Positions 38,423 to 61,414 of a stretch of DNA of 64,000 nt are shown here, one piece after another; the first letter of the stretch is position 1, and every line of letters begins with the position of its first letter. Position numbers and translations under genes: made by a program. Origin of the DNA: Gemmatimonadota bacterium. GTDB taxonomy: Bacteria > Gemmatimonadota > Gemmatimonadetes > Longimicrobiales > Gaopeijiaceae. The notes under the pieces are model-generated. The model ran no database searches and was not told the DNA's origin. It saw nothing but the letters and a program-made list of their open reading frames with translations. The stretch is from positions 62,001 through 126,000 of the forward strand of contig JAGWBQ010000007.1 of NCBI GenBank assembly GCA_021295815.1, written 5' to 3'.

Positions 38423-40606
38423 GTGGACAATGCCTCCCACGGCATCACGGCGCTGCATCCGAAAAACGTCGTGCTCATCGTCACCGTCCTCGGGGGATTC
38501 GTCCCGGGGGCGGCGGCACCCGCTGTAACCGCGGCGCAGGAAGCCGCGACGACCGGACTGGTCGGTTTCACCGCCGACCGCGCCGAACGGCAAGCGTTCT
38601 GCGAAGCGGAGTTCCTCGGTCTGCCTTCGAGCGACTCGTTCCGCGAACACCTGCGCACCATCACGTCGGAGCCGCATCCGGCCGGATCCGAGGCCCAGAA
38701 GAGGGTCGGCGAGTACCTGGCCGCCGTCATGGAGCGGTCTGGGCTCGAGGTCAGGTCGCATCCTTACGACATTTACCTGCCGGAGCTCACCGACGACGTG
38801 GAGGCGCACATCGTCACGCCGACGGCCCTGCGCCTCTCCAACCGCGAGCCCGCGCTCCCCGAGGACCGTTTCAGCGGCCACCCCGATCTGCTGAACGGTT
38901 GGAACGCCTTTTCGGGTACCGGCGACGTGACCGGAGAGGTGGTCTACGCCAACTTCGGACGCAGGGAGGACTACCTCGCGCTCGACTCGATGGGCGTTTC
39001 GGTGGAAGGTCGCATCGTCATCGCGCGCTACGGCGGCAACTTCCGAGGCTACAAGGTGAAGTTCGCCGAGGAGCGAGGAGCCGCAGGCGTCATCATGTTC
39101 AACGATCCCGGCTTCGGCGCTACAGGCGACATCTACCCCCAGGGGCCGATGATGAACGGCGAGACCATCCAGAGGGGTTCGGTGCTGACCCTGCCCTGGA
39201 CCGGGGACCCGCTTACCCCGTTCGTGCCCGCGCTGCCTGTGGACGGCGACCGTCAGGTGGAGCGGCTCGATCCATCCGAGATCGCCCTGCACACAATTCC
39301 CGTGTTACCTCTCGGTTCGAACGCCGCCGGAGAGATACTGCGCAGAATGGAGGGCGAGACGGTTCCGCCGGGATGGGCGGGCGGCATCGACGCCCCCTAC
39401 CGGCTGACCGGCGGCACCGACCTCACCGTGCGCGTCCGAGTCAACCAACCCAAGCGGCTCACCCGGGCGGTAAACGTCGTAGGCACGGTACGCGGGTCGG
39501 AGTATCCCGACGAGTGGTTCGTGCTCGGCTCCCATTACGATCCGTGGGGCTTCGGGGCGATCGACCCCAACGGAGGCACGGCGATGCTCCTCGTCCTCGC
39601 CGAAGCTCTGGGCGAACTCCGGGAGCGGGGCTGCGAGCCTCGGCGGTCGATCATGATCGCTCACTGGGACGCCGAAGAGGCAGGCATCCTGGGCTCGACC
39701 GAGTGGGTGGAGGAGTTCCTGGAAGAGCTGGAGGCGAACGCCGTCGCCTACGTCAACGCCGATGCCGCCGTCTCCGGGGGCAACTTCGGAGCGTCCTCGT
39801 CTCCTTCCTTGAAAGGACCGATCCTCGAAGCGACGAAGGTCGTGGAACGCCCGGGCGAAGGTCGCTCGCTATACGACTGGTGGATGGAGAGGGCGCCCGA
39901 GGGTTCGGTGGAGCCCAACCTTGGGAATCTGGGGGGCGGTTCCGATCACGTCGCCTTCTACACTCACGCCGGAGTGCCTTCCGCCGGGCTCAGTTCAGGA
40001 GCGCCGAGCGGGGTCTACCACTCCAACTACGACAACTTCGCCTGGTACGAACGCTTCGGGGACGTCGATTTCGTCTTCGGCCCCATGGTGGCGAGGGCCG
40101 ACGGCGTGCTCGCTCTGCGTTTTGCCAACGCCGACATCCTTCCGTACGACGTGGTCCGCTACGCCGACGACGTGCGCACCCACGTCGAGACCCTGTACGC
40201 CGTGGCCGAAGCGCGTCGGCTCTCGGTCGGCTTCGACGATCTGCTGGCGGCCACCGTCGGACTGGAGGCGGCCGCTCGCGAGCTCGACGGCGCCCGCGCT
40301 CGCGTGGTAGCGGCCGACCGGGTCGATCCGGCTCTGGCCGAGGGGGTGAACCGGATGCTGATCGGACTGGAGAAGGCTTGGTTGAACGATCGCGGTCTTC
40401 AGGACCGGCCTTGGTCGCGCTCCCTCTACGTCTCGCCCGACCCGTTCAGCGGCTACGCCTCCTGGATGCTTCCGGGACTGCGCTACGAGATCGAGACCGA
40501 CGATCGCGGCGACCTTCCCGGCTGGGAGCGAGTCTACGTCAATGCCGTGAACGACCTCTCGGAGCGCATGCGCGCAGTCACGCTGGCGCTCGCCGAAGAG
40601 GGATAG
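38423..40606 (+). CDS. Secreted M28 (glutamate-carboxypeptidase-II-like) peptidase
   Basis: A 727-residue di-zinc exopeptidase. A signal peptide (VVLIVTVLGGFVPGAAAPAV) precedes a protease-associated domain (about 100-330) and the catalytic domain. The metal ligands and base have the spacing of human GCPII: H371, D381 (HYDPWGFGAIDPNGG), E418/E419 (WDAEEAG), D447 (NADAAV) and H533 (YHSNYDNF). The C-terminal helices match the dimerisation domain. It should release C-terminal acidic or hydrophobic residues from peptides in the periplasm or outside. GTG start six bases after metY. Confidence 0.93.
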   Translation: MDNASHGITALHPKNVVLIVTVLGGFVPGAAAPAVTAAQEAATTGLVGFTADRAERQAFCEAEFLGLPSSDSFREHLRTITSEPHPAGSEAQKRVGEYLAAVMERSGLEVRSHPYDIYLPELTDDVEAHIVTPTALRLSNREPALPEDRFSGHPDLLNGWNAFSGTGDVTGEVVYANFGRREDYLALDSMGVSVEGRIVIARYGGNFRGYKVKFAEERGAAGVIMFNDPGFGATGDIYPQGPMMNGETIQRGSVLTLPWTGDPLTPFVPALPVDGDRQVERLDPSEIALHTIPVLPLGSNAAGEILRRMEGETVPPGWAGGIDAPYRLTGGTDLTVRVRVNQPKRLTRAVNVVGTVRGSEYPDEWFVLGSHYDPWGFGAIDPNGGTAMLLVLAEALGELRERGCEPRRSIMIAHWDAEEAGILGSTEWVEEFLEELEANAVAYVNADAAVSGGNFGASSSPSLKGPILEATKVVERPGEGRSLYDWWMERAPEGSVEPNLGNLGGGSDHVAFYTHAGVPSAGLSSGAPSGVYHSNYDNFAWYERFGDVDFVFGPMVARADGVLALRFANADILPYDVVRYADDVRTHVETLYAVAEARRLSVGFDDLLAATVGLEAAARELDGARARVVAADRVDPALAEGVNRMLIGLEKAWLNDRGLQDRPWSRSLYVSPDPFSGYASWMLPGLRYEIETDDRGDLPGWERVYVNAVNDLSERMRAVTLALAEEG

Positions 40607-40616
40607 CGCCGCAGCG

Positions 40617-43079
40617 GTGATCGCGGCGTTCGGGAGGTACCCGGTCAGGGCGATCGTCGGGCTGCTGGTGCTGATCGCCTGTTCCGGGGAAGCGGAGCCG
40701 GCGCCGGGCATGGCGGCCTCCGTAGGCGACCATGTTCTCACGGTGGAGCAGCTGGCGGAGGTTCTGGTTCTTGCCCAGCCGTTCCCCTTGGAGGTCGATC
40801 CGGCGCTGGAGCTCGTTCGGCACTGGGCGCTCTCCGCCGCGGTCGCGACCGCCTTCGCTGCCGGAGACAGTCTGAACGGTAAGACCGCGGTCGACGCGGC
40901 CACCTGGATCGCCCGCCGCGAGGCGGTTCTTGCTCTCGAGCGCGAGGACCGCCTCGGTCCGCCGCCTACGGTGGACGATCCCGAGCTCGCCCGCGAGGTC
41001 TTCGACCGCGGCGAACTCCGCCTTTTCGCTCACGTCCTCCGGCGGGTCGGTCCCGAGACGCCGCCGGCGGAACGTGCGCTTCAGAGGCGGACGGCGGAGC
41101 GTATCCTCGCGGACCTCGTGGCCGGAGGCGGATGGGCGGCGGCCGTCGCCCAAAGCCAGGCCGACGAGACGCGAGCGCTGGGCGGGGTTCTCGGTCTCTT
41201 CGGCCCCGGCGAGCTTCCCGGCGAGCTTGACCGGGCCGGAGTCCGGCTGGAGCCGGGTTCGGTATCGTCGGTGATCGAGACCGTCGACGGGTTTCACCTC
41301 CTGTACCGCCCCACTTTCGCCGAGGTGGGCGCCATCTACGCCGACCGCCTGGGCTCGCGCATGCTCGCCGAGGCCGACGCGGCCTCGGCCGAAGCCGCGC
41401 TCGCGGCGGCCGGCTTCCGGGTCGTGGAGGGCGCGGGGGCGGTCGTCCGCCGCGTCGCCGCCGCTCCTGCGGACTGGTTCGACCGGGAAGCCGCGCTTGC
41501 CACCTGGACCGCCGGCGCCCTCCGGGCTGCGACCTTCGCTCGCTACCTCGCGGCCCTGGAGGCGGGTGAACGGCAAGGCTTGGCTTCCGCCGACGACCGC
41601 TCCACAACCGCGCTCCTCAACGAGCTCGGCTATCGGGAGCTCCGGATGGCGGAGGCGGCGGCTCGCGGACTTGCACTCGACAGCGTGACGGCCCAGGAGC
41701 TCGCCGAGCGACACCGCTCCGACCTGGAGGCGTGGCGCGAAGCCGTGACCGGCCAAGGCGCTCTTGGCGTCCATCTGCGCGAAGTGGCGGCCAGGCGGAC
41801 GGCAAGACCGTCGCTGGGTCCGGTCCTGGCCGCCGAGCTGCTCTCGACCGCCAGATTGGGAAGGGACGCTGCTGCGGCTGCGGTCGATCGGGCTCGCACA
41901 CTCATTGTCGCCGCCATGGATGGAGCCGAGCGGACAGGGTCCGTCCCTGTCGCTGCCGTTACCGAAACCGCGCTCGGCCGGCCGCTCCCCGGCATCGGCG
42001 ACGGCGGCCGCGGTCGCTTCCTCCTCGGCCGGGCTCTCTTCGAGAGGGTCGCCACTCCCGACGAGGGTCTCGGACCGCTCTTCAACGCCGATCGCTGTGT
42101 GAGCTGCCATGATGATCCGGTGGTCGGGGGGGGCGGGCTCTCCATACCGGTCCGCAAGGCCACCGCCTTCATCGCGGGGCGCTGTGACCTGCTGCCCGCT
42201 CACGGGGGCGACAACCTCCAGGCCCGCGCCACACCGATGGCGCTCGCCGCCGGCCTCGCCCCCGAGACCCGGCCCGACGATGCCACCGCGTTCGCCCAGG
42301 TGGTCGCGCCTCCGCTCTTCGGTCTGGGCCTGCTCGAGGCCGTGCCCGACGAGACCGTTCTGGCCTTGGAGGACCCGGAAGATCTAGACGGCGACGGCGT
42401 CTCCGGTCGCGCCCCCAGACTCGCGGACGGTCGGATCGCCCGTTTCGGGCGCAAGGGAGACGCTGCGGACGTGCGCGGCTTCGTCGAGCAGGCGCTCAGA
42501 ACCGAACTCGGACTGACCACTCCCGAGCGTCCCACCGAGGAGCGCGCCGGCGGCTCGCCAATTCCCGGCTCCGCCGACCCTGCGGAGGAACCGGAGATGG
42601 ACGAGCGGGGCATGGACCTGCTGACCGAATACGTGCGGTACCTCGCCCCGCCCGCTCCCGAGCTCCTTCCTGCCGGGGTGGTGCGCGACTCGGTGGAGCG
42701 GGGCCGAGTGATTTTCGACCGGACGGGCTGTGCGGCCTGCCACGTGGCCGAACTGCGAGCTTCGCAAGTTGCGGAACCACCGCTTGCGAACTTGCGGGTG
42801 CCGGCCTACACCGATCTCCTGCTCCATGATCTCGGAGCAGGAGACATCGGTGGAGCGAGAGAGGACCTGTGCGGGTACGACGCCCTGCCGGGCGAGTACC
42901 GCACGGCGCCTCTCTGGGGGTTGCGCCACCGCTCGCGCTTCCTCCACGACGGCCGGGCGGCCAGCGTCGAAGAGGCCGTTCTCGCGCACGGGGGTGAAGC
43001 CGCCCGAGCGCGAGCGGCGTTCCACGACTTGATCGAGCGCGACCGAGCCGATTTAGTCCGTTTTCTCCTTTCGCTATGA
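40617..43079 (+). CDS. Fusion: parvulin-type PPIase and di-heme cytochrome oxidoreductase
   Basis: An 820-residue lipoprotein (lipobox LIACSGE). Residues 30-400 look like a SurA/PpiC prolyl isomerase or chaperone: FAHVLRRVGPETPP, AQSQADETRALGGVLGLFGP, SSVIETVDGFHLLYRP. Residues 440-820 are a di-heme oxidoreductase (DUF1111/DHOR type) with DEGLGPLFNADRCVSCHDDP (haem ligands C494, C497, H498) and CAACH (C705, C708, H709), ending in RTAPLWGLRHRSRFLHDG. The stand-alone relative is at 52938. Start GTG, 10 bases after the M28 gene. It would act in the periplasm; the electron donor and the folding client are unknown. Confidence 0.88.
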   Translation: MIAAFGRYPVRAIVGLLVLIACSGEAEPAPGMAASVGDHVLTVEQLAEVLVLAQPFPLEVDPALELVRHWALSAAVATAFAAGDSLNGKTAVDAATWIARREAVLALEREDRLGPPPTVDDPELAREVFDRGELRLFAHVLRRVGPETPPAERALQRRTAERILADLVAGGGWAAAVAQSQADETRALGGVLGLFGPGELPGELDRAGVRLEPGSVSSVIETVDGFHLLYRPTFAEVGAIYADRLGSRMLAEADAASAEAALAAAGFRVVEGAGAVVRRVAAAPADWFDREAALATWTAGALRAATFARYLAALEAGERQGLASADDRSTTALLNELGYRELRMAEAAARGLALDSVTAQELAERHRSDLEAWREAVTGQGALGVHLREVAARRTARPSLGPVLAAELLSTARLGRDAAAAAVDRARTLIVAAMDGAERTGSVPVAAVTETALGRPLPGIGDGGRGRFLLGRALFERVATPDEGLGPLFNADRCVSCHDDPVVGGGGLSIPVRKATAFIAGRCDLLPAHGGDNLQARATPMALAAGLAPETRPDDATAFAQVVAPPLFGLGLLEAVPDETVLALEDPEDLDGDGVSGRAPRLADGRIARFGRKGDAADVRGFVEQALRTELGLTTPERPTEERAGGSPIPGSADPAEEPEMDERGMDLLTEYVRYLAPPAPELLPAGVVRDSVERGRVIFDRTGCAACHVAELRASQVAEPPLANLRVPAYTDLLLHDLGAGDIGGAREDLCGYDALPGEYRTAPLWGLRHRSRFLHDGRAASVEEAVLAHGGEAARARAAFHDLIERDRADLVRFLLSL

Positions 43080-43816
43080 AGTGGACGCCCGAGACCGCAC
43101 GAGACCTTCCGGTAGTGGAGGTCGAAGAGGTCGAACGCCGGTTCGGGGCCAAACGGGCGCTCGGCCCGGTCAGCTTTTCCATCGCCCGCAAAGGCATCGT
43201 CGGAATCCTTGGGCTGAACGGGGCGGGGAAAACCACGCTCCTCCGCATTATGGCGGGGGATCTTCGACCCACCTCGGGTGTTGCGCGCATCGACGGTCTG
43301 GATCTGGCGAGGGATGCTTTCACGCCCAAACGGCGCATCGGCTATCTGCCCGAGAGTCCGCCGCTCTACCGGGACATGGGGGTGCGCTCCTTCCTGCGCT
43401 TCGTCGCAACAATAAAAGGGGTGGCAAAGGAAGATATGAGCGCGGCGGTCGAAACCGCGGTCGAGAGGGCCGGCATCGGAGAGGTCGCGGAGAGGCCGAT
43501 CGGCCAGCTATCGCACGGATACCGGCAGCGAGTCGGTCTGGCCCAGGCTATCGTGCACTCGCCTTCTCTGACAATCCTCGACGAACCGACGAACGGACTC
43601 GACCCGGTCCAGATCGTCGCCATGAGGGAGCTCATAAGGGAGCTCGGGCGGGAGAGCGCGATAGTCGTCTCCTCCCATGTTCTCGGGGAGGTCTCGAAGA
43701 CCTGCGACCGCGTGATCGTGATCCACCGGGGCAGGTTGGTCGCCGACCGGAGCGCCGACGACTTCGGAGTCGCCGGTGGAGAGCTTGAGCGTCTCCTCGT
43801 GGAACTGGTCGAATGA
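43076..43816 (+). CDS. ABC transporter ATPase, GldA-like
   Basis: A 246-residue ATP-binding subunit. The Walker A GLNGAGKTT (46-54), the signature LSHGYRQR (145-152), the Walker B LTILDE (165-170) and the switch histidine in SSHVLGEV are all present. YLPESPPLYRDM is the Q-loop of GldA/CcmA-type ATPases. It overlaps the upstream stop (ATGA, 43076-43079) and the permease start (43813-43816). With the next two genes it forms a GldA-GldF-GldG set, which in Bacteroidetes supports gliding and secretion but elsewhere has other roles. Confidence 0.92.
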   Translation: MKWTPETARDLPVVEVEEVERRFGAKRALGPVSFSIARKGIVGILGLNGAGKTTLLRIMAGDLRPTSGVARIDGLDLARDAFTPKRRIGYLPESPPLYRDMGVRSFLRFVATIKGVAKEDMSAAVETAVERAGIGEVAERPIGQLSHGYRQRVGLAQAIVHSPSLTILDEPTNGLDPVQIVAMRELIRELGRESAIVVSSHVLGEVSKTCDRVIVIHRGRLVADRSADDFGVAGGELERLLVELVE

Positions 43817-44544
43817 GAACGATCCGCGCCATCGCCCTCCGCGATCTGACCAGTTACTTCCGATCGACGACGGGCTACGTGGTAGCGAGCGCTGTCCTCC
43901 TTCTTGACGGTGTCCTCTTCTACGCCTTGGCGTTAGGCCCGGGGGCCGGAGAACGGCTCTCAGGAGAGGCTCTCGGGAGCTTCTTCTACTCCGCGAGCGG
44001 GCTTACGGCCGTGGCCGCAGCCGTCCTCTCGGCGCGTCTCATCGCCGAAGAACGGGTGACCGGCACCCAGGTCCTTCTCGACACCTCGCCTATTACCGAT
44101 TTCCACATTGTTGCGGGCAAGTTCTGGGCGGCGTACGGTTTCGTGTCGGCGATCACGTTCGTGAGCCTCTACCTGCCCCTTCTCGTCTTCGTGAACGGGC
44201 GCATTTCGTTCGGGCACATCGCGATCGGCGTCCTGGGCCTCCTCTTGCTCGGAGCTGCGGTCACCGCCATCGGACTTTTCGCGTCGTCGCTCACTTCCCG
44301 ACCCATCCTCGCCGCCGCGGTCGGTGGCGGCATCACGGCGATGCTGTTCCTCCTTTGGCCGCTCTCCCAGGCTGTCGATCCGCCGCTTTCGCGGGCCTTT
44401 GCCGCCTTGGCGATACACGGCCGCCACTTTGCGACCTTCCAGGCAGGCATACTCCACCTTCGCGACGTCACGCACTATCTCGCAGTGACCGCGTTCTTCC
44501 TGATCGCCGCCGTCAAGGCGCTGGAGGCCCGCAGATGGTCCTGA
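43813..44544 (+). CDS. ABC transporter permease, GldF-like
   Basis: A 243-residue protein with six membrane helices (for example GYVVASAVLLLDGVLFYALA, IAIGVLGLLLLGAAVTAIGL, HYLAVTAFFLIAAVKALEAR). The cytoplasmic loop LIAEERVTGTQVLLDTSPIT is the family feature that contacts the ATPase. ATGA overlap with the ATPase gene and a 10-base overlap with the next gene show translational coupling. Confidence 0.85.
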   Translation: MRTIRAIALRDLTSYFRSTTGYVVASAVLLLDGVLFYALALGPGAGERLSGEALGSFFYSASGLTAVAAAVLSARLIAEERVTGTQVLLDTSPITDFHIVAGKFWAAYGFVSAITFVSLYLPLLVFVNGRISFGHIAIGVLGLLLLGAAVTAIGLFASSLTSRPILAAAVGGGITAMLFLLWPLSQAVDPPLSRAFAALAIHGRHFATFQAGILHLRDVTHYLAVTAFFLIAAVKALEARRWS

Positions 44545-46457
44545 CGGCAGGGCTGGTTCTCGTCCTGTTGAGCGAGAACGCCCTTGGCGACTCCACGTTC
44601 AGGGCGGCGTTCACCGGGATCGGTGTCGCCCTCGTGCTGGCGGCCGCAGCCCGCGATTTCCTGGCTTGGCGACGCGACCGCGGACGGGTCTCGACGATCC
44701 TCGCCGCCACCTCCGCCGGGTGTGGGCTCGCGCTCGCGGGTTTCCTCGCGGCGACCGAGAACGGATCCGATCTCATCGGGCTTGACTTCGAAAGCGAGGC
44801 CGCCTTCGGAAGATACAGTCGCACTCTGCTCACCCTCTCGACGATGGCGATGGCCATCGGCCTGCTTCCGGCTCTCGCAACCCGCTGGGCTCGCGCCCGC
44901 ACTCAGGCCGAGGGGGTCGTCCAGGTGGCGACCGCCGCTCTGGCGACCGCCCTCGCTGGGTCCACCCTCACCTTGGTCGGGTATCTAGCGTCCGAAAAGG
45001 ACATCGTGATCGATTTTTCCTACTTCAAGACCGCGATGCCCGGTGAAGCCGTCGTCAACCTGGCGGAGGCGATGGACGAACCGCTCGAAGCGACTCTCTT
45101 TTTCCCGGAGGTCGATCCCGTCAAGGACGAGGTTCTTAGATATTTCCGGGAGCTCCAGCGCGAGGTCCCGAGTCTCGAGATTCAGGTGATCGACCGGTTC
45201 GCCGATCCCCGCGCGGCTGAACGGTACCGGATCGCCAGGGACTGGATGATCGTCCTCGCACCGACCTCGACGTCGGACGGAGTCGATGGCGCGACCGATG
45301 CCGATGCCGAACTCGGACGCCACGAGCGGATCGGTCTTCCGGAGACGTTGGATGAGGCCAGAGGCAACCTGAGGATTTTCGACGGCTTCGTGCACGAAGC
45401 GCTTTCCAAGTTGACTCGTCGGGAAAGGGTCGCCTATCTCACCGCAGGTCATGGCGAGCTTAGCGACGGGTCCGCCGAGGGCCGTGACCTCGCTACGGGG
45501 CCGGAGAGCTTCGTTGAGACCGACCCCGAATCGGAACTGCCGCTCGCCGAGCTGCGCCGGCTGCTCGCAGCGCTCAACTACGAAACCAGGGATCTCGGCG
45601 TTCGCCAGGGGCTCGCCGAAGGGGTGCCCGCAGATGCGGCGATTCTGCTGGTCATCGGTCCCGAGCGTCCCTTCCTGGACGAGGAAGCGGCATCCGTACG
45701 CGAATATCTGGCGCGGGGTGGTTCGGCGCTCTTCGCGGTCGAACCCGACTCCGACTTCGAGCTGGCTCCCTTTGCCGCGCTCCTGGGCGTGGACGTCGCC
45801 TCCGGGACCGTCGCGGACGAGGAAACCCACGGTAGGCGGCGGGGGGGCAGAGCCGACCGAAGCATCCTCGTCACCGACCGCATTCTGGCTCATCCGTCGG
45901 TGAACGTCCTCTTTCGAAGCGGCATCGGCACGGGCGTTCTCTTCGACGGGAGCGGCCACCTCGACATGACGAGCACGTCACGCACAGACGACCGGACCGT
46001 TGCCCCGCAGGTGTTCGCCACGGTCCACGCTCTCTCGTCCTCCTTCGTCGATCTCGACCGGGACCTCGACTTCGACGGCGAAGCGGAAGCGCGTGAAGGC
46101 ATCACTCTCGTCGCCGCGACCGAGGCCGCCTACGCCCCGACGGACAACTCCGATGCGGCGACGGCAGCGAAGACCGACGACACCTTCCGGGCGATCGTGT
46201 ACGCCGACGCGGCCCCCTTTACCGACGAAGTGCTTAGATCGCTCGCCCCGAACGCAGCCATGGTCACGAACAACCTGAGCTGGCTCGGGCGAGAAGAGGA
46301 GCTCGCGGGCCTCATCGTTTCCGAGGAGGACGTGCCGGTGCTGCATGCCCACGCCGAAGATCTGGTCTGGTTCCAGCTCGTCATCTTCGGCGTGCCCCTC
46401 ACCTTGCTGACCGTCGGGATCGCCCTGACCGTCGGAAGGAGGAAGAGTGAAGGCTAG
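44535..46457 (+). CDS. GldG-like ABC auxiliary protein
   Basis: A 640-residue protein. The first 150 residues hold several helices (VLVLLSENALGDSTFRAAF..., MAMAIGLLPALATRWARA, AALATALAGSTLTLVGYLAS). The large periplasmic part is the PF09822-type ABC auxiliary domain: FSYFKTAMPGEAVVNLAEAM, VTLFFPEVDPVKDEVLRYF and RRERVAYLTAGHGELSDGSA. A last helix (FQLVIFGVPLTLLTVGIALT) returns to the membrane before the basic tail. Start ATG 44535 overlaps the permease stop. It probably works as the periplasmic part of the Gld-like transporter. Confidence 0.85.
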   Translation: MVLTAGLVLVLLSENALGDSTFRAAFTGIGVALVLAAAARDFLAWRRDRGRVSTILAATSAGCGLALAGFLAATENGSDLIGLDFESEAAFGRYSRTLLTLSTMAMAIGLLPALATRWARARTQAEGVVQVATAALATALAGSTLTLVGYLASEKDIVIDFSYFKTAMPGEAVVNLAEAMDEPLEATLFFPEVDPVKDEVLRYFRELQREVPSLEIQVIDRFADPRAAERYRIARDWMIVLAPTSTSDGVDGATDADAELGRHERIGLPETLDEARGNLRIFDGFVHEALSKLTRRERVAYLTAGHGELSDGSAEGRDLATGPESFVETDPESELPLAELRRLLAALNYETRDLGVRQGLAEGVPADAAILLVIGPERPFLDEEAASVREYLARGGSALFAVEPDSDFELAPFAALLGVDVASGTVADEETHGRRRGGRADRSILVTDRILAHPSVNVLFRSGIGTGVLFDGSGHLDMTSTSRTDDRTVAPQVFATVHALSSSFVDLDRDLDFDGEAEAREGITLVAATEAAYAPTDNSDAATAAKTDDTFRAIVYADAAPFTDEVLRSLAPNAAMVTNNLSWLGREEELAGLIVSEEDVPVLHAHAEDLVWFQLVIFGVPLTLLTVGIALTVGRRKSEG

Positions 46458-46586: not shown

Positions 46587-47516
46587 GTGCTCGTGCTAGT
46601 TTCGCCAAGGACCGCTGGCGCGCGCGGCTACGCGGCAGCCCTGGTCATCGCGCTGGTGGCGGCCGCTGTTCTGCGTGTCACGGCCGATCCGGGTGCTGCC
46701 GATGCGGGCCGCACGGCTCTTTGGGAGCACAAGCTCTCGGAACTGGCCGCGGTCACCTATTCGTCCTCCACCCTCCAATTGGATATTCGACCACTGAGCG
46801 CGGACGGAGGCGAGCATCTGATCGCGGTCGAGAACGGTGCCGGCCGGACCCTGCGTTACCCGCTGGGAGATTTCGGTCGGGAGGCCGTCGCCGAGCTAGC
46901 CGTCTTTCGTCCCGTGCGCGACCTCGGTCCCTTGGACGGGGACCCGGCGGTTTACGGCCTCGGCGGGGGTTCAGCTCGACTGACCCTCGACTTCGGCGAC
47001 GAGCTTATGGAAATCTTCGTCGGCAGGGAGGTGCCCGCCGGCGAGGAACGCTTCGCGCTGCTCGGTCCCAGACTTGTCGCGCTCGCGGGAGACCTTATCA
47101 CCCCCTTTGAGCTCGGCCAGGGCGCCCTCAGGGTTCGGCGCCTGCACGAATTCCCGTGGAGCTCGGTCCGGGGCATCACCCTGAGTGTCGACGGAAGATC
47201 CGGCGCGCTCACCAGAGAGACGGGTGGAGGCTGGACCGTTGCGGAGGGCGTTTCGCAGGCGGCCGTCAGGCTCGCGGAGCGATCCTGGCAGTTGGCGGTT
47301 CTCGGTTTCGAGCCGCCTCCGATGGCCGAACGGCTCGGTACTCTGGTGAACCTGGGCTACCGCGACGCCGAAGGGAACGAGCTGGGTTGGGTCGAGCTCA
47401 TGAAGGATCTTGAGACCGACACTTACTGGGTGACGAGCGAACGCACCGTGTTCCCGGCGCTCGCCGATGCCACCCTCGCCCGCCGGGTGGAAGAGTCTCT
47501 CTTCGGAGTCTTTTAG
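46587..47516 (+). CDS. DUF4340-type protein, N-terminus probably frameshifted
   Basis: A 309-residue protein of the type that often follows GldG. It has one remaining helix (YAAALVIALVAAAVLRVTAD) then a periplasmic domain of repeated strands (LTLDFGDELMEIFVGREVPAGEERF, FPWSSVRGITLSVDGRSGALT). The GTG at 46587 leaves part of the anchor behind: reading the same frame upstream gives FLVALWTAATAFPVLVLV, and GRIAVLFV lies one frame over at 46526-46549. A start further up (GTG 46447, overlapping the GldG end) with frame slips is likely. Confidence 0.65.
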   Translation: MLVLVSPRTAGARGYAAALVIALVAAAVLRVTADPGAADAGRTALWEHKLSELAAVTYSSSTLQLDIRPLSADGGEHLIAVENGAGRTLRYPLGDFGREAVAELAVFRPVRDLGPLDGDPAVYGLGGGSARLTLDFGDELMEIFVGREVPAGEERFALLGPRLVALAGDLITPFELGQGALRVRRLHEFPWSSVRGITLSVDGRSGALTRETGGGWTVAEGVSQAAVRLAERSWQLAVLGFEPPPMAERLGTLVNLGYRDAEGNELGWVELMKDLETDTYWVTSERTVFPALADATLARRVEESLFGVF

Positions 47517-47736: not shown

Positions 47737-50700
47737 ATGTCAATCCGCTACCGTACGGGGGGAGGCGTCGCGGCTGCTGCGCTCGCGCTCGTGGTCGCCT
47801 CGACCTCTCTGAACGCCCAGGTCGGCAGCATCACCGGATCGGTGATCGACGACACCAACGGGCAACCACTCAATGGAGCGCAGATCTCGCTTGTGGACCA
47901 GCGGGACGGTGTGCTCTCCAACGTTACCGGTCAGTACCTCATGACGAGGTTGACGCCCGGCAACTACACGGTCCAGGTGGTGTTCGTGGGTTACGCCACC
48001 GAGACCCGGGAGGTCACGGTCACCTCAGGTGAGGCGACCGTCGAGAACTTCCGCCTTCGCCAGTCCGCCATCCGACTCGACCAGATCGTGGTCACGGGTA
48101 CCGCCGGAGAGGTGGAAAGACGCAAGCTGGGATCGGCTCCGGCTACCCTCGACATCTCCAGCATCAACGACGTCTCTCCCCAGGCCGGTTTCGGCTCGGC
48201 GCTGGAAGGCCGCATTCCCGGAGTGCGTTCCATCGGGACGGTGGGAGGCGTCGGCGCCGGCCGCGAACTTCGCATTCGCGGAACCGACTCCTTCTCGCTG
48301 GGCCAGCGCCCCGTGATCTACATCGACGGCGTTCGGGTCGACTCCCGTCAGGTGGAATGGGGAAGCTCCGCCGGCGGAAGCACGACCTGCTGCGCTTTCT
48401 CCGGCGGCGCCGGTGAGGACCGACTCTCGGACCTGAACCCCGACGAGATCGAGCGCGTCGAGGTTCTCAAGGGGCCGGCGGCGGCCACGCTCTACGGATC
48501 CGAGGCTTCGGGAGGCGTCATTCAGGTCTTCACGAAGAGAGGCCGGAACAACAGCTCGGCGAACTTCGCCCTGACCACGCAGCTCGGCTTCAACCGCCAC
48601 CGCGCGAACTTCCCCACGTCTCTGCGCGGCACTCTGGTCGGAATCGACGGCACGGTTCCGTGGGACCCGAACGAGACCCTGATCGAAAACGGTCTCGTCA
48701 ACACGTACAACCTGACGGTGGACGGCGGTGGAGAGGATGTGACCTACTTCGTGAACGCCGGTATCGGCTACGAGGAAGGATCGGTCAAGCCCAACGATCA
48801 GACCCGCGGCAACCTGCGTCTCAACCTCAACTGGACCGCCGCCGAGGACGTCACCGTCCAGGTCCGGTCCGGTTACGTGCGCAACCGCATCTGGTCGCTC
48901 CAGTCGGGCAACAACTGGCTCGGCATCTACACCAACGCGCTGCTTTCGCGGCCGACCAACGCCACCGCCGAGGAGCCCTACGGCGGCGGGCTCGATGTCA
49001 ACGTGGCCGATGCCAAGGCGATCTCGACCTACTCCGACACCGACCGATGGACCGGCAGCGTCCAGGTCGACTGGGTGCCTAGTCCGAACTTCCGCCACCA
49101 GGCGACGATCGGGCTGGACGCGGTCAACGACCAAAAAACGCGCAACCTTCCCTTTGGGAAGCACTACACCTACATCGGCACCGTCGGCGAGCGGAACATC
49201 GGCTACCGCAACGCTCGCAAGTTCACCGGAAATTACATCGGCACGCTCAACTACGAGAACGTCTTCGGCCTCACCGGCGAGATCGCGTTCGGTGCCCAGG
49301 GAGGATGGGACCTGACGAGCACTTCGATGGCGACCGGCCGCGGATTCGCGGGCGAGGGAGTCACGACCGTCGGTGGTGCGGCGGAAACCTTCGGTGGCGA
49401 GACTTCGCTCGAGTCCATCCAGGTCGGCGGCTTTGCTCAGAACCGCTTCGAGTTCACCGAGGACCTCTTCATGACCGCCGCGGTCCGCATCGACGGCAAC
49501 TCCGCCTTCGGCGTGAACTACGGCTTCCAGGTCTACCCCAAGGTCGACGTGGCCTACAACCTGCCTCAGAGCATGATGGGTTCGACGCTATCGAGCGTGA
49601 AGCTGAGGGGTGCGCTCGGGTACGCCGGCAAGGCCCCCGGAGCATTCTCCCAGTTCCAGACCTACCTGCCGAACACAGTCCTCGACGACCGGCCCGGCGT
49701 ATCGCCCAGCAACCCGGGTAACGCCGACCTGGAGCCCGAGATCAAGCGCGAAATCGAAGCCGGCTTCGACATCGGTCTGGTCGACAACAGGATCGCGGTC
49801 GACTTCACGGGTTACCATCAGTTGATCGAGAACGCGCTTCTGGGTATAGCGCTGCCGCCGAGCGAAGGCTTCGGAAGCTCACAGCTTCGCAACGTCGGCC
49901 AGATCATGAACCGCGGCATCGAGGCGACAATCAACGCCTCCCTTGTCGATCGGTCCGGCTTCCGCTGGAACACCGGATTCTCCTTCGAGAAGACCCAGAA
50001 CAAGATCCTCGATCTGGGTGAAACGGCCGAGCTCGACTCGCTGCCCATCTACGCCGAGGGCGACATCTCCAACGTGCCCGTGAGCTGGGAGCACGTGAAC
50101 CGCGTCGGCGGCCTATACGAGGGCTACCCGATCTTCGAGATGATCGGCAGGGGCATTCTGGGTTGGGATCCGGCGACGGGCGAGCACGTACGCTCCACCT
50201 ACGGCTATTATCGAGGAAAGGGCGAGCCCGACCTCATGGGCTCCGTGTGGAACACCTTCAGTCTCGGCCGAAACCTGCGACTTCATGTCCAATTCCGCGG
50301 CGAGATGGGTGCCAGCATGTGGAACTCCGATCGCGGCTACGGCGTTCGCCAGCTCGCCTACGACGAGTACGTCATGCACCTGGACTCGAACGGCGATCCC
50401 ACCGCAGCGGCGGATTCGGTGCTGAACTTCCACCGTCTGGCCACGCCCGTGGATTCCAGAGACCACATCAGACTTCAGGAGGCGTCGCTTCAGTTCACCG
50501 TACCTTCGGCGATCAGTTCGAGCATGGGACTCTCCACGACGACGCTCTCGCTCACGGGTTACAATCTGCACTGGTGGGACAACTGCAACTGCCCCGATCC
50601 CAACCAGCAGTACAGGGGAGGTGACGATTTCAGCCAGTCGCCCTTCCTCGGACTACCGCAACCGAGGCGCATGGTACTTACGGTTCGAACGAGATTCTAA
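47737..50700 (+). CDS. SusC/RagA-family TonB-dependent outer-membrane transporter 1
   Basis: A 987-residue receptor. Signal peptide to about residue 28 (STSLNAQ). The SusC N-terminal regulatory-like domain is at 30-120 (GSITGSVIDDTNGQPLNGAQ). The plug follows (IRLDQIVVTGTAGE, RGTDSFSLGQRPVIYIDGVR, VLKGPAAATLYGSEASGGVI). The remainder is beta-barrel, ending in TVRTRF with a terminal aromatic. It has a pair of Cys (TTCCAF) in the plug. The ribosome site AGGAAGGAG is 8 bases upstream. It imports a SusD-bound nutrient with the protein at 50713; the substrate is not evident. Confidence 0.95.
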   Translation: MSIRYRTGGGVAAAALALVVASTSLNAQVGSITGSVIDDTNGQPLNGAQISLVDQRDGVLSNVTGQYLMTRLTPGNYTVQVVFVGYATETREVTVTSGEATVENFRLRQSAIRLDQIVVTGTAGEVERRKLGSAPATLDISSINDVSPQAGFGSALEGRIPGVRSIGTVGGVGAGRELRIRGTDSFSLGQRPVIYIDGVRVDSRQVEWGSSAGGSTTCCAFSGGAGEDRLSDLNPDEIERVEVLKGPAAATLYGSEASGGVIQVFTKRGRNNSSANFALTTQLGFNRHRANFPTSLRGTLVGIDGTVPWDPNETLIENGLVNTYNLTVDGGGEDVTYFVNAGIGYEEGSVKPNDQTRGNLRLNLNWTAAEDVTVQVRSGYVRNRIWSLQSGNNWLGIYTNALLSRPTNATAEEPYGGGLDVNVADAKAISTYSDTDRWTGSVQVDWVPSPNFRHQATIGLDAVNDQKTRNLPFGKHYTYIGTVGERNIGYRNARKFTGNYIGTLNYENVFGLTGEIAFGAQGGWDLTSTSMATGRGFAGEGVTTVGGAAETFGGETSLESIQVGGFAQNRFEFTEDLFMTAAVRIDGNSAFGVNYGFQVYPKVDVAYNLPQSMMGSTLSSVKLRGALGYAGKAPGAFSQFQTYLPNTVLDDRPGVSPSNPGNADLEPEIKREIEAGFDIGLVDNRIAVDFTGYHQLIENALLGIALPPSEGFGSSQLRNVGQIMNRGIEATINASLVDRSGFRWNTGFSFEKTQNKILDLGETAELDSLPIYAEGDISNVPVSWEHVNRVGGLYEGYPIFEMIGRGILGWDPATGEHVRSTYGYYRGKGEPDLMGSVWNTFSLGRNLRLHVQFRGEMGASMWNSDRGYGVRQLAYDEYVMHLDSNGDPTAAADSVLNFHRLATPVDSRDHIRLQEASLQFTVPSAISSSMGLSTTTLSLTGYNLHWWDNCNCPDPNQQYRGGDDFSQSPFLGLPQPRRMVLTVRTRF

Positions 50701-50712
50701 GGAGGAACCTAC

Positions 50713-52014
50713 ATGAACACTTCAAGGATTAGGTGGCCGCTGACCGCGGTCGCCCTGATGCTCGGGCTGGGAGCGTGCGGTGACCTGCTCACCGTGCCCG
50801 ATCCCCAGCGGTACACGGACGAAGATCTCGACAACGCCCTCGACGCCGTCGCCGACGGCGTCGAGGGGGCGCTCCACGAGGTTGTGGACAGTTGGGTCAT
50901 TTACCAGGCGCTTCTCGGTGACGAGTATCAGCACACCGGCACCTGGAGCGGCTACGACGAGACCGACCACGGCAGGTTCCAGTACGGGACCTCGGCGATG
51001 GACGGGATCAACAACGCTTGGTTGCGGGCTCGCTGGTTCGCCAGGGCCTCTGCGGAGCGCTTCGAGCGCGTGTTGGGTGCGGGGGAGGCTGCGAGCACCG
51101 ATCTCATGGCGCAGGTCCACGTCTCCGAGGGGCTGGTCGATCTCATGATCGGCATGACCTTCTGCGAGTCGCCCGCAGATCCCACCGGCGACGCGGTGTC
51201 GGCAGCGCAGATTCTGACGCAGGCGGTTTCCAAGCTCGATCGGGGGGAGAGCACCGCGATGGCGGCGGGCGAAACCTACTACGCCACCGCAGCACGAGCG
51301 GGCCGCGCCACCGCCAACCACTTGCTGGGCAACTACGCGGCGGCGGCGGCGGACGCGGCGTCGATTCCCGACGGTTTCTCCTACGATGCCATCTTCAACG
51401 CTCAGTCCCGGAACTCGGTGGTCCTTCTGACCACGAAGACCTGGAACGAGGCCGCCGGCATCCAGCACGGATACTGGAACCGGATCGCGCTGAGCGATGA
51501 TGCGGGATACATGGCCGACTGGGCGACCGGCGCTCCCGACATGCGGCTTCCGGTCTACTACGACGGGGAGATCGCCACCGACAACGAGACGGGTCACCGG
51601 TCGCAGTGGAAATACGACTCGGAGACCGCGCCGATCCCCATTCTTCACTCCAGAGGGATGCGGATGATCCAGGCCGAGGCCGCCATGTTCGGAGGTGACT
51701 TCGCCAGCGCCATGCAGATAGTCAATGGTCTGCGGGCGTCGGTGAATCTCCAACCCCTGCCTGTGCCCACCACCATCGAGGAGGCGGGATTCCTGTTGCT
51801 CAACGAGCGTTTCGCCGAGCATTTCATGGAGGGCCGGCGTCAGATCGATCTCCATCGTCTGGGAATCACCAAGGACATCTTCGACTTGCTCAACGACGAC
51901 GAGCGGGTCGGCACGAACCGTCCGACACAGTTCCCCATGAGCGACACCGAAGCGCTCTACAACCCCAACATCGTCGACGACCTGGCGCAGCGCTGCCTGC
52001 CTAGGGCCGGGTAA
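50713..52014 (+). CDS. SusD/RagB-like lipoprotein 1
   Basis: A 433-residue surface lipoprotein that partners the SusC upstream. The lipobox is LGLGACGD. The fold is helical with TPR-like stretches (AGRATANHLLGNYAAAAADAAS, MIQAEAAMFGGDFASAMQIV) and the C-terminal FLLLNERFAEHFMEGRRQIDL motif is typical. It has AAGGAGGAAC directly before the ATG. The 12-base gap to SusC and the strong hairpin after the stop (52047-52078) suggest a two-gene unit. Confidence 0.92.
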   Translation: MNTSRIRWPLTAVALMLGLGACGDLLTVPDPQRYTDEDLDNALDAVADGVEGALHEVVDSWVIYQALLGDEYQHTGTWSGYDETDHGRFQYGTSAMDGINNAWLRARWFARASAERFERVLGAGEAASTDLMAQVHVSEGLVDLMIGMTFCESPADPTGDAVSAAQILTQAVSKLDRGESTAMAAGETYYATAARAGRATANHLLGNYAAAAADAASIPDGFSYDAIFNAQSRNSVVLLTTKTWNEAAGIQHGYWNRIALSDDAGYMADWATGAPDMRLPVYYDGEIATDNETGHRSQWKYDSETAPIPILHSRGMRMIQAEAAMFGGDFASAMQIVNGLRASVNLQPLPVPTTIEEAGFLLLNERFAEHFMEGRRQIDLHRLGITKDIFDLLNDDERVGTNRPTQFPMSDTEALYNPNIVDDLAQRCLPRAG

Positions 52015-52109: not shown

Positions 52110-52889
52110 GTGGTAACGCTGGACCGCAAAGCAGTGGCAGCCGCAGTTCTGGTTCTCGCAGCTATGGGTCCGCTTACCGAGCTCGAGGCACAGCGCAGGA
52201 CCGAAGCCGGCGTCATCACAGGTGTGGTGATCGATCAGGAGTCGGTAGAACCGCTTGCTGACGTGCGGCTCGTTCTCGTTCCCTACGGGGAGGGCCGGGA
52301 GGTCTTTGGAAGGACCGCCGTCACGAATCAGGACGGCAGATTCCTCCTTTCCGAGGTGGCCGGCGGTGCCTACGATCTGCGGGTCGAACTCTTGGGGTAC
52401 GGAGACCGAAGCGACAGCCTCGAAATCGATGAGGGCACCTTTCTCGACATTTCAGTCAGCTTGGGGATAGAGGCCATCGAGCTCGACGAGATTTCGGTGA
52501 CGGTAGGGTCGGTGGTGCTGGCTCGTCAGGGATTCTACGACCGAAAACGCCAGGGATTCCGCGGAACCTTCATTGAACGCTCCGAGATCGAAGAAGAGCA
52601 GCCGGCCTCGGTTACCGAGCTCTTTCAAAACGTGCGCGGAGTGACCGTCGTCTGGGGCGGGGTCTATGGTTCACAGGTCTTCATGAACCAGCGGAGCAGC
52701 TTGACCAGCGGTCATCCGGGCTGTCGGCCCGAAGTCTGGCTCGACGGCATTCGCTCGACCATCGAGTCGCTCGACATAATGCGGGTCGAGGAGCTGGAAG
52801 GGATCGAGGTCTATCGCGGAGGTGCTCCGGGCAAGTTCAACGACCCTTGCGGTACGATCGCGATTTGGACCAAGAGAGTCATCCGCTAG
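52110..52889 (+). CDS. Barrel-less CarboxypepD-regulatory-like plus TonB-plug protein 2
   Basis: A 259-residue exported protein with a signal peptide (AAVLVLAAMGPLTELEAQ). It carries a regulatory-like Ig domain (GVITGVVIDQESVEPLADVR, LRVELLGYGDRSD) and a plug domain (IELDEISVTVGS, ELFQNVRGVTV, EVWLDGIRSTIESLD, GIEVYRGGAPGKFNDPCGTI). It stops before any barrel. Cysteines at GHPGCRPEVW and NDPCGTI may form a disulfide. GTG start with GGGAGG six to eleven bases upstream. It is a relative of the protein at 30080 and lies after susCD 1. Confidence 0.75.
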   Translation: MVTLDRKAVAAAVLVLAAMGPLTELEAQRRTEAGVITGVVIDQESVEPLADVRLVLVPYGEGREVFGRTAVTNQDGRFLLSEVAGGAYDLRVELLGYGDRSDSLEIDEGTFLDISVSLGIEAIELDEISVTVGSVVLARQGFYDRKRQGFRGTFIERSEIEEEQPASVTELFQNVRGVTVVWGGVYGSQVFMNQRSSLTSGHPGCRPEVWLDGIRSTIESLDIMRVEELEGIEVYRGGAPGKFNDPCGTIAIWTKRVIR

Positions 52890-52937: not shown

Positions 52938-54164
52938 TCAGAGTGAGGCCAGGAACGCAAGAACCAGGTCGCGCCCGAGCCGGTTCAGTTCCTGGAAACG
53001 GTCGCGCGCCGCACTAGCTTCGCCGCCGTGCAACAGGACCGCGTCCTCCACTCGCTGTACGCGCCCGTCGTGCAGGTACTGAAAACGGTATCCGAGGCCC
53101 ATAAGCGGGGTGGTTCGCCACTCGGAGGGAGCGGCTCCGCCCGCACACGGTCCGGCGAGCTCGGGGCCCATGTCGTGCAGCAGGAAGTCGGAATAGGGAC
53201 GGAAGGCCTTTTCGGCGAAGGCGAGACGGTCCGTTGCACTGTCCCGGCCGGGGGCCGATGTCATCATGACCGGAACGTGACAGCTCGTGCATCCGATTTC
53301 GGTGAAGAGGCGTTCGCCCTCCGCCGTCCGGTCCGCATCGCTCTCGGTTCGCCGGGCGGGGGGCGCCAAAAAGCGAACGTAGGCGGCAACCGCCTCAAGG
53401 ACCGAGTCGGCGAGCTCGGGCTCGGCGGTCGGGTCCGTTCCTGCGGGCAAGGGCATTCCGTTCGGGAGTTCCTCGTACGGGTGTCCCGATGTCGTGAGTC
53501 CCATCTCGAGTCGAAAGGCGTCCTCGGCGAAATCCCGCACCCTCGCGTGAGTGGCTTTGAAGCCGAAGCGGGCGAGGGCTCCCGCGCCGTCGAACCCCGG
53601 ACGCCCCGAGATGCCGTCTCCATCGCTGTCCTCGGGATCGGCGAGAGCGAGGATGGTCTCTTCCGCTACGGCCTCCACCATGCCCATGCCGAAAAGCGGA
53701 AGTGGGAAGATGTCGGCCATGTGAGTGGCATCCGGCGGACGCCGTTCGGGAGCGCCGCCGGCCGCGCGCAGCGGCTCGGTCACCAGAAACTGGAGGAGAT
53801 CGCCGCCGGCTGCGTTCAGGGGATCGCAACCCGTGGCGGGATCGAAGCGGCTGGCCTTAGTGACCGGCTCCGCCCCGAAACCGCCGCTTGCGGGCAAGTC
53901 GTGGCAGGAGACGCAGCGTCGCTGGTTGAAGAGGGGACCTAGCCCCTCCGATTCCGTGAACTCGCGTTGGAAGAGCGCTCGTCCAAGGCGGAATGCGCCC
54001 AGTTCGGTCTCGGTCAGTCCGGGAAGTGGATCACCAGGCTGCTCTTCGACGAACTCCGCAGTAGCGGTGCAGGAGGGGGAGCCGACTGCGAAGAGCAGGA
54101 GCGGAACACTGCGCCACGAGCTTGCCCGCTCCAGCGTCGCGGTGCCCTGGGAGGCCTTGGCCAC
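52938..54164 (-). CDS. Stand-alone di-heme oxidoreductase (DHOR/DUF1111) lipoprotein
   Basis: A 408-residue periplasmic c-type cytochrome. The N-terminus has a hydrophobic signal ending SPSCTATA, possibly a lipobox. The two haem sites are CVSCH (C84, C87, H88) and CTSCH (C292, C295, H296). Other family blocks are SEGLGPLFN, DPEDSDGDGISGRPGF and FRPYSDFLLHDMGPELAGPC, and RTTPLMGLGYRFQYLHDGR closes the domain. It matches the C-terminal half of the 40617 fusion along its whole length. Six bases separate it from the lipoprotein upstream on the same strand. Confidence 0.92.
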   Translation of the reverse strand: MAKASQGTATLERASSWRSVPLLLFAVGSPSCTATAEFVEEQPGDPLPGLTETELGAFRLGRALFQREFTESEGLGPLFNQRRCVSCHDLPASGGFGAEPVTKASRFDPATGCDPLNAAGGDLLQFLVTEPLRAAGGAPERRPPDATHMADIFPLPLFGMGMVEAVAEETILALADPEDSDGDGISGRPGFDGAGALARFGFKATHARVRDFAEDAFRLEMGLTTSGHPYEELPNGMPLPAGTDPTAEPELADSVLEAVAAYVRFLAPPARRTESDADRTAEGERLFTEIGCTSCHVPVMMTSAPGRDSATDRLAFAEKAFRPYSDFLLHDMGPELAGPCAGGAAPSEWRTTPLMGLGYRFQYLHDGRVQRVEDAVLLHGGEASAARDRFQELNRLGRDLVLAFLASL

Positions 54165-54170
54165 GGGTTG

Positions 54171-54650
54171 CTAGGGAATCCCGAGAGTCGCCGCCTGGAA
54201 TTGGTAGGAGAAGGTGAGGGCCTGGCGGACTCCCACGGATTCCCACACCTGGAGTTCCCTGAAGTCGTTGTACCAGTCCCGCCCGTCGATCTTCACGTTC
54301 ACGGCGATAGTGGCGACGACCTCTTCCGTGGGAAAGATGCGCGAATGGAACTGCAGGCGATCGTTCAGGCGGTAGGTCCGCTCGTACGGCAGGGTGACGG
54401 TGGTCGTGTCGGACGAGTTGATGTGCGTGATCAGAGGGCAGCCCTCCTGACCGACGCACTCCGGGTCCTCGACGAGGAGGAAATCCTGCGACGTGATCAA
54501 CACTGCCGACGAGACCTGCTGGCTAGTGACGGTCACGGTAACCTCTTCAGGTTCACCTGGACCGGTGAGCCAGTCACAGCCGGAGATCAGGACGGGGACG
54601 AGCGAGAGCGGGAGAATCCGAGGCAGGACGGAAGACGACGGAAGGAGCAT
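54171..54650 (-). CDS. Hypothetical lipoprotein
   Basis: A 159-residue lipoprotein with signal peptide ending LVPVLISGCDW. The mature part is strand-rich (EVTVTVTSQQVSSAVLITSQ, TTVTLPYERTYRLND, VATIAVNVKIDGRDWYND) and has a Cys pair (PECVGQEGCP). No family is recognised. It is six bases upstream of the di-heme gene, and both face away from susC 2. A role with the cytochrome is inferred from position alone. Confidence 0.7.
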   Translation of the reverse strand: MLLPSSSVLPRILPLSLVPVLISGCDWLTGPGEPEEVTVTVTSQQVSSAVLITSQDFLLVEDPECVGQEGCPLITHINSSDTTTVTLPYERTYRLNDRLQFHSRIFPTEEVVATIAVNVKIDGRDWYNDFRELQVWESVGVRQALTFSYQFQAATLGIP

Positions 54651-59576: not shown

Positions 59577-61414
59577 ATGGGAACCTACGTCGTTCGAACT
59601 GCCGGTATGCTCATGCTGCTCGCGTTGGCGGCTCCCGGCCCGGTAACCGCCCAGACGCCGACAGGGGCGATCGAAGGCACGATCACCGACGCGACCACGG
59701 GCCAGCCGCTGCACCAGGTCTCGGTCGTGGTGGAGGGAACCGAGCTCAGCGCACTGACCAACCTGACGACGGGCCGCTACTTTCTGACCAACGTACCCGC
59801 CGGAGACCACACCGTGAGGGTGGTGGTCATCGGCTACGTGACTCAGGAGAAGCAGGTCACCGTCACGGCGGGCCAGACCACGGTGGCCGACTTCGCGCTC
59901 GAGATTTCGACCGTCAGCCTTGACGAGATGCTAGTCTCCGGAGCGGTGGGCGAAGTGTATTTCAGGACGAAGGGCGGACCGTGGCCCTTGGTGAGCGTGG
60001 CCGATTTCAACACCGAATCCTACGCCCACATCGACGAGAACGACTTCAAGCTCGTCAGCGCGTCCCCGCTCTCCACCTTCTCGACCTCCTACGCCAACGT
60101 GCGCCGTTTCATCCAGGACGGCGAGCGCCCGCCCATCGACGCGGTCCGCATCGAGGAGATGGTCAACTACTTCCCCTACGAGTGGGACGACGTGTCTGGC
60201 GAGCACCCGTTCGCCGTGACCACCGAGGTGACCCAGGCGCCCTGGAAGCGGGAGCATCGGCTGGTTCGCATCGGGCTGCACGCGCAGTCGATCGACACCG
60301 AGGATCTCCCGCCCAGCAACCTGGTCTTCCTGCTGGACGTGTCCGGATCGATGGAACCGAGCAACAAGCTGCCGCTCCTCAAGAAGGCGTTCTCTTTGCT
60401 TGTCGACCAGCTGAGGCCGCAGGACCGGGTCGCGATCGTGGTATACGCGGGCGCTGCCGGGCTTGTGCTTCATTCCACCCCCGGCAACCGGCAGGACAAG
60501 ATCCTGGCCGCGCTCGAACGGCTGCAGGCCGGCGGCAGCACCGCCGGAGGCGAAGGTCTCAAGCTCGCCTACGAGACGGCCCGCGAGTATTTCATCGACG
60601 GCGGCAATAACCGCGTCATCCTGGCCACCGACGGCGACTTCAACGTGGGCGCCTCCAGCGACGGCGAGATGGTGCGGCTCATCGAGAGAGAGCGCGAAAG
60701 CGGCGTCTTCCTGACCGTGCTTGGATTCGGCACCGGCAACCTCAAGGACTCCAAGATGGAGCAGATCGCCGACCACGGGAACGGCAACTTCCACTACGTC
60801 GACGGCCTGCTCGAGGCCCGCAAACGCTCCTCACCCTGGCCAAGGACGTGAAGCTGCAGATCGAGTTCAATCCGGCGCGGGTGGAGGGCTATCGCCTGAT
60901 AGGGTACGAGAACCGGCTGCTGGCCGACGAGGATTTCAACGACGACACCAAGGACGCGGGCGACCTCGGGGCCGGACACACCGTGACCGCGCTCTACGAG
61001 GTGGTGCCTGCGGGCGTCGAGGTGCCGCGCGAGAGTGAAGTCGACGATCTGCGCTACCAGCCGCAGGCGGACCACCCGCCGCTCAGCGAGTTCGAAGGCG
61101 AGATGCTGTACGTCAAGATCCGCTACAAGGATCCCGACGGGGAGAAGAGCAGGCTTCTCGAACACGCTGTCGCCGACCGGAGCGGGATGCCTTCCACCGA
61201 CTTTCGCTTCGCGACCGCGGTGGCGGGCTTCGGCATGCTGCTGCGCGACTCACCCTATGCCGGGACCTTCTCACTCGACGATGTCGTGAAGCTGGCCGAG
61301 AGAGGCAAGGGGGATGACCCGCGCGGCTACCGGGGCGAGTTCATCCGGCTGGTGGAAACGACGCGAGACCTGGGGCTGCTCAAGGAGGCGGAGGAAACGG
61401 ACGGGCGACACTAG
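59577..61414 (+). pseudogene. Von Willebrand-A (YfbK-like) protein with SusC-type N-terminal domain, frame broken
   Basis: Signal peptide to TAQTP, then a regulatory-like domain (25-120) as in the SusC proteins, ending SLDEMLVSG. Residues 150-400 are the YfbK-type VWA region (IEEMVNYFPYEWDD, MIDAS-type LDVSGSMEPS, LATDGDFNVGASSD). After LLEARK at 60824 the frame ends at 60851 in a 9-residue unrelated tail. The next part of the family, TLLTLAKDVKLQIEFNPARV, begins one frame over at 60824 and runs to 61414 with the YfbK C-terminal domain. About 25 bases seem missing compared with homologues. It may be two separate proteins now, or an error. Confidence 0.8.

Follow-up and report, generated by a model that had tools for sequence, protein, structure and literature searches.

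Does the long open reading frame at positions 40617 to 43079 (+ strand) of the window, that is, the whole 64,000-nucleotide stretch of DNA analysed here, encode a genuine fusion between a parvulin-type foldase and a di-heme oxidoreductase, and which envelope process would such a protein serve? The original prediction had described it as a SurA/PpiC-like half joined to a di-heme oxidoreductase, and its frame, coordinates and heme cysteines (C494/C497 and C705/C708) all proved to be exactly right. Profile searches, a structural model covering the first half and a comparison with split orthologues from 28 genomes all backed the joining of the two halves, and the assembly carries no stop codon between them.

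The two halves of the fused protein

The frame opens with a GTG start and runs unbroken for 820 amino acids. The N-terminal lipoprotein signal peptide, residues 1 to 22 (MIAAFGRYPVRAIVGLLVLIA/C; 40617 to 40682, + strand), was read off the sequence: it includes the segment GLLVLIAC, of which L-I-A-C is the lipobox and Cys22 the lipobox cysteine. A lipobox cysteine was also found at the parvulin N-terminus of most split relatives. Profile searches gave matches above the curated cut-offs for both the PPIase and the DHOR/DUF1111 half. Because MAFFT misplaced the halves in a joint alignment of the fused protein and both split sets, AlphaFold2 models were made for each half separately, the first as residues 1 to 443. 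Structure prediction supported the first half, with a SurA-like fold at a mean pLDDT of 89.8, but not the DHOR half, of which the model (pLDDT 47) was too poor for a fold search.

The parvulin domain was located at residues 133 to 234 (41013 to 41318, + strand). In Pfam, Rotamase (PF00639) matched residues 139 to 230 with 40.6 bits (cut-off 21.7; E = 5e-10) and PF13616 matched with 26 bits (cut-off 22.5), and residues 133 to 234 of the model were superposed on the first parvulin domain of SurA with a Z score of 15.2 and an rmsd of 1.6 Å over 101 residues. The description of this half as SurA/PpiC-like therefore holds for the parvulin fold, but not for the pair of domains found in SurA, since both Pfam (one Rotamase stretch) and the model indicated one parvulin domain only. 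Among NCBIfam models, the PrsA equivalog scored 17 bits against a cut-off of 343, and the best match, NifM, reached 29.6 bits against a cut-off of 168.2. The fused protein resembles the foldases SurA, PrsA and PpiC in the parvulin fold, the flanking helical parts and export, and PrsA also in being a lipoprotein; it differs from them in its single parvulin domain (two in E. coli SurA), in the change of the Met/Phe pocket to Leu and in the di-heme enzyme at its C-terminus. At the positions assigned to the parvulin active site (His, Cys/Asp, Met, Phe and His), His139, Asp182 and His227 are kept and Leu200 and Leu204 replace the Met and Phe of active parvulins; the first catalytic His is missing in two split relatives. 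Because of the altered pocket and these two relatives, a holding or docking role appears more likely for the parvulin half than a strong isomerase activity, and there may be little or no prolyl isomerisation.

The DHOR/DUF1111 half covers residues 454 to 820 and the stop codon (41976 to 43079, + strand) and matched PF06537 of Pfam with 134.5 bits (cut-off 22; E = 5e-39). Two heme c sites were observed, CVSCH at residues 494 to 498 (42096 to 42110, + strand) and CAACH at residues 705 to 709 (42729 to 42743, + strand), and in both the two Cys and the His are invariant in a 23-row alignment. By its profile and these invariant motifs, this half is a predicted di-heme c-type oxidoreductase. Its sequence relatives in the PDB were weak matches only, to c-type cytochromes and bacterial di-heme peroxidases. 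The di-heme proteins of the DHOR/DUF1111 family are widespread, and to our knowledge no function has been firmly assigned to them. Tree analysis placed the fused DHOR inside the clade of parvulin-linked DHORs (95/97), which also takes in the DHOR of genome G059, on a branch about as long as those of its nearest neighbours. A second DHOR (52938 to 54164, − strand; PF06537), 49% identical to the fused one, was placed in a separate clade and is kept in the relatives too. The original prediction had taken it for the same cytochrome without the PPIase; an unfused DHOR is indeed encoded there, but it is a paralogue of the other clade and not the same protein.

The junction and the split relatives

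The window belongs to the genome of an uncultured member of the Gemmatimonadota. In 28 genomes of its family, parvulin and DHOR are encoded by separate adjacent genes on the same strand and in the same order (a count made by hand; 121 genomes of the family were searched), and the fused frame was the only one of its kind among the 121. Of the DHOR matches listed across 395 Gemmatimonadota genomes, none showed a second fused frame. Frames of more than 800 codons were present in the family genomes G014, G029 and G037, but with the parvulin match in another frame, and the upstream neighbour of the G143 DHOR was a ZIP transporter. The full-length fused protein had no relative in a genome-contig collection from which its own genome is possibly absent.

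The junction itself was located at residues 442 to 452 (41940 to 41972, + strand), where the stop codon, the spacer and the DHOR signal peptide of the split relatives are replaced. The split parvulins end at positions corresponding to fused residues 440 to 446 and the mature DHOR starts adjacent to them, about 11 residues lying between the conserved ends; the fused parvulin is thus retained down to its final residues. The signal peptide and lipobox with which the split DHORs begin are both gone in the fused gene, and a search for the DHOR signal peptide at the junction was negative in all three frames. The GC content by codon position was even across the junction.

An assembly or sequencing error at the junction could have run two adjacent genes together. 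Such an artefact would agree with the occurrence of the fusion in one genome only, a draft assembly of 35 contigs, with the separate and closely spaced genes of the relatives, and with a gene close by (59577 to 61414) that does look frameshifted. An error should, however, have kept the second signal peptide in some frame, and the three frames are without it; the codon-position GC is even, and the gene lies far from the ends of a 289-kb contig. We consider an artefact very improbable. The strongest argument for a true fusion of neighbouring partner genes at 40617 to 43079, which we regard as very probable, is the comparison of the junctions, since neither the loss of a stop codon nor a slip in sequencing would have removed the signal peptide of the second gene.

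The adjacency of the split genes in 28 genomes suggests that the two proteins work together. This partnership appears to be independent of the rest of the cluster, because the split pair persists in six genomes (G035, G044, G047, G060, G062 and G067) without ABC genes in the fetched stretch. Heme groups of the c type are attached in the periplasm. A free DHOR made from an internal start was also considered and was rejected, since such a protein would have no signal peptide and would receive no hemes in the periplasm. As export to the periplasm needs the signal peptide of the parvulin, the DHOR half would work only as a part of the fusion.

The gene cluster and the SusC/SusD receptor

In the relatives, which are Gemmatimonadota assemblies (several labelled Longimicrobiales), a cluster is conserved in the order DUF4399, parvulin, DHOR, GldA/GldF/GldG-like ABC transporter, DUF4340, SusC/SusD and second DHOR. 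In the window, the fused gene is followed on the + strand by its conserved neighbour, a GldA-like ABC ATPase (43076 to 43816; ABC_tran), which overlaps the stop codon of the fused gene in the sequence ATGA, and then by a GldF-like ABC-2 permease (43813 to 44544; ABC2_membrane_2) and a GldG-like ABC auxiliary protein (44535 to 46457; ABC_transp_aux, PF09822). Further downstream on the same strand are a DUF4340 protein (46587 to 47516; PF14238, slightly below the cut-off), a SusC-like TonB-dependent receptor recognised by Pfam (47737 to 50700) and a SusD-like lipoprotein (50713 to 52014; PF07980), all three conserved in position, and a protein with CarboxypepD_reg and Plug domains by Pfam (52164 to 52889). 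The second DHOR and the small lipoprotein F8 adjoining it (together 52938 to 54650) are convergent to the rest of the cluster. F8 (54171 to 54650, − strand) was found at 11 loci, namely, that in the window and L036, L037, L038, L040, L041, L042, L044, L045, L047 and L049, mostly beside the second DHOR; its Trp-Tyr/Phe pair is nearly invariant, and an F8 relative gave no match in Pfam or NCBIfam. F8 is a candidate substrate or partner of the second DHOR.

Several observations were made on genes around this cluster. DUF4399 stands alongside in the relatives, often with a beta-lactamase-like gene, and the genome of the window has both together on another contig, where the beta-lactamase-like gene lies directly before that of a DUF4399 lipoprotein with a GHHHL motif (G000:C1:117509-117781, L158). 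An M28 peptidase with PA and TFR_dimer domains (38423 to 40606, + strand) stops 10 bases ahead of the fused gene; its place there is not conserved in the relatives. The gene at 59577 to 61414 (+ strand), coding for a von Willebrand factor A protein of the YfbK type, has an apparent frameshift near 60830: the N-terminal part with CarboxypepD_reg, vWF_A and VWA stops at 60851, and YfbK_C goes on in another frame. The break may be genuine or due to an error in the sequence.

The presence of DHOR was compared with that of SusC/SusD at loci where the ABC genes were present and the downstream sequence exceeded 8 kb, presence being counted when SusC, SusD or both were found. DHOR occurred with SusC/SusD at 16 of these comparable loci and both were absent from the other 6 (Fisher P = 1e-5, a value that ignores shared ancestry). 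Six genomes carry DUF4399-parvulin-ABC-DUF4340 without DHOR, and both SusC and SusD are missing in all six. G059 (L120), of which the contig ends within 6 kb, was outside the count and is a mixed case, with parvulin, ABC genes and SusC together and DHOR on another contig; in G044 the parvulin–DHOR pair is kept, and the 20 kb fetched from it contains neither SusC nor SusD. The rows lacking DHOR require four changes on the parvulin tree, where G031 is sister to a DHOR-bearing genome, and at least two independent co-losses of DHOR and SusC/SusD were recognised. The joint presence or absence and the four changes on the tree altogether indicate two modules: DHOR follows the SusC/SusD receptor, and parvulin accompanies both modules. 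The outer-membrane client supposed in the original prediction thus gained indirect support, in that DHOR tracks SusC/SusD at 22 of 22 comparable loci. The coupling of electron transfer to the folding or processing of that client, also supposed there, is hypothetical: the parvulin pocket has Leu in place of both Met and Phe, the first catalytic His is lost in two relatives, and the genome context of DHORs elsewhere ties them to metal transport.

Possible roles of the fused protein

The partners probably serve an outer-membrane uptake system. The likeliest reading, to which we give about an even chance, is that the frame is a true fusion of partner proteins and a redox module for SusC/SusD uptake, probably of metal, with the parvulin as a dock for the client. 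The signal peptide of the parvulin would then export both halves, the lipobox cysteine would anchor both to a membrane, probably the outer one, and the DHOR half would gain its hemes only when exported within the fusion. The DHOR half would carry out a redox step for SusC/SusD uptake, most likely on a metal or a metal-loaded ligand. The parvulin/chaperone half would mainly be a binding platform that holds the redox centre at a protein client, which may be the SusC/SusD receptor or a substrate of the GldAFG-like ABC transporter.

The link to metal is drawn by analogy with other DHOR branches. In other Gemmatimonadota families, DHORs adjoin Rieske proteins together with NRAMP or ZIP metal transporters. 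This other branch was observed in small operons (L171, L172, L173 and L176); two were profiled, L171 (DHOR-Rieske-NRAMP) and L173 (ZIP-DHOR-Rieske). An unnamed protein of about 390 amino acids adjoins the Rieske protein, and operons of these types may form a unit for metal-redox transport. Iron-uptake operons with imelysins also encode DUF1111 proteins, imelysin–peroxidase fusions exist, and EfeB was counted as a DUF1111 member (PMC3143127). Such operons (PA4370-PA4373; PMC3143127) resemble the present cluster in that an uptake locus combines DUF1111/DHOR with an adjacent envelope lipoprotein, the two being occasionally fused; the partner there is imelysin, whereas here it is parvulin, with SusC/SusD and a GldAFG-like ABC transporter in addition. 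Imelysin (Peptidase_M75, PF09375) was absent from the genome of the window (96% complete), and the same search was positive in four control genomes. Only the PA4371-type comparison should be used, because EfeB is a DyP-type peroxidase.

Instead of acting on metal, the di-heme half could, like MauG or MbnH, mature proteins by oxidising residues of a secreted or outer-membrane protein presented by the parvulin. As precedent, the Trp-to-kynurenine change of a partner protein that binds copper is suspected to be the work of a MauG-like di-heme enzyme, and TonB-dependent receptors are found beside MbnH/MbnP pairs (PMC3621798). The fused protein shares with this system (PMC3621798) two c-type hemes and a link to TonB-dependent outer-membrane uptake, the DHOR being likewise linked to SusC/SusD; a foldase would be sensible as a substrate holder, and the second DHOR has in F8 a conserved neighbour with a nearly invariant Trp-Tyr/Phe pair. 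It belongs, however, to the DHOR family of Pfam and is joined to a foldase, the MauG model (TIGR03791) gave 14.3 bits against a cut-off of 443.85, and F8 adjoins mostly the second DHOR, not the fused one; MbnP was not recognised among the neighbours examined. A role in such maturation is rather unlikely. We are equally doubtful of a role in export or surface biogenesis of the Gld/T9SS type, in which the parvulin would serve the GldAFG-like ABC machine and the DHOR would ride along. The ABC ATPase and permease best match GldA (240.2 bits) and GldF (91.2 bits) in NCBIfam, but below the curated cut-offs of 402.6 and 288.5. As in the Gld transporter of Bacteroidota, ATPase, permease and a GldG-type auxiliary protein are adjacent; here they are joined by DUF4340, DUF4399, parvulin, DHOR and SusC/SusD. 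The retention of DUF4399-parvulin-ABC-DUF4340 in six genomes without DHOR and SusC/SusD, and an SprA_N-like frame on the same contig, would favour such export, which nevertheless leaves the redox half and its tie to SusC/SusD unexplained; a search for T9SS C-terminal domains, run without a positive control, detected none. The SprA_N match (G000:C7:141349-141696, L182; 29.1 bits, cut-off 27) lies about 15 kb past the end of the window, in a 2118-codon open frame that may encode a T9SS translocon-like protein.

It is quite improbable, in our estimate, that the foldase passes its client, SusC/SusD or an exported substrate, to the joined di-heme centre, which would then oxidatively modify or metallate it. 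If it did, folding and redox processing would form a single step of receptor assembly, and the protein would be an envelope maturation enzyme of a new kind.

A literature search of limited range found no parvulin–DHOR pair, combination or cluster; each of the domains is known, and their combination and the cluster appear to be new. Fusion of neighbouring partner genes is a common event, and the value of this one is that it names a partner for a poorly understood heme family. Together with the conserved split pair, it identifies which protein DHOR/DUF1111 is partnered with in this lineage; the uptake system that DHOR probably serves is indicated by its shared pattern of presence and absence with SusC/SusD. 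If expressed, the fusion would offer one polypeptide in which a foldase and a redox centre can be studied together.
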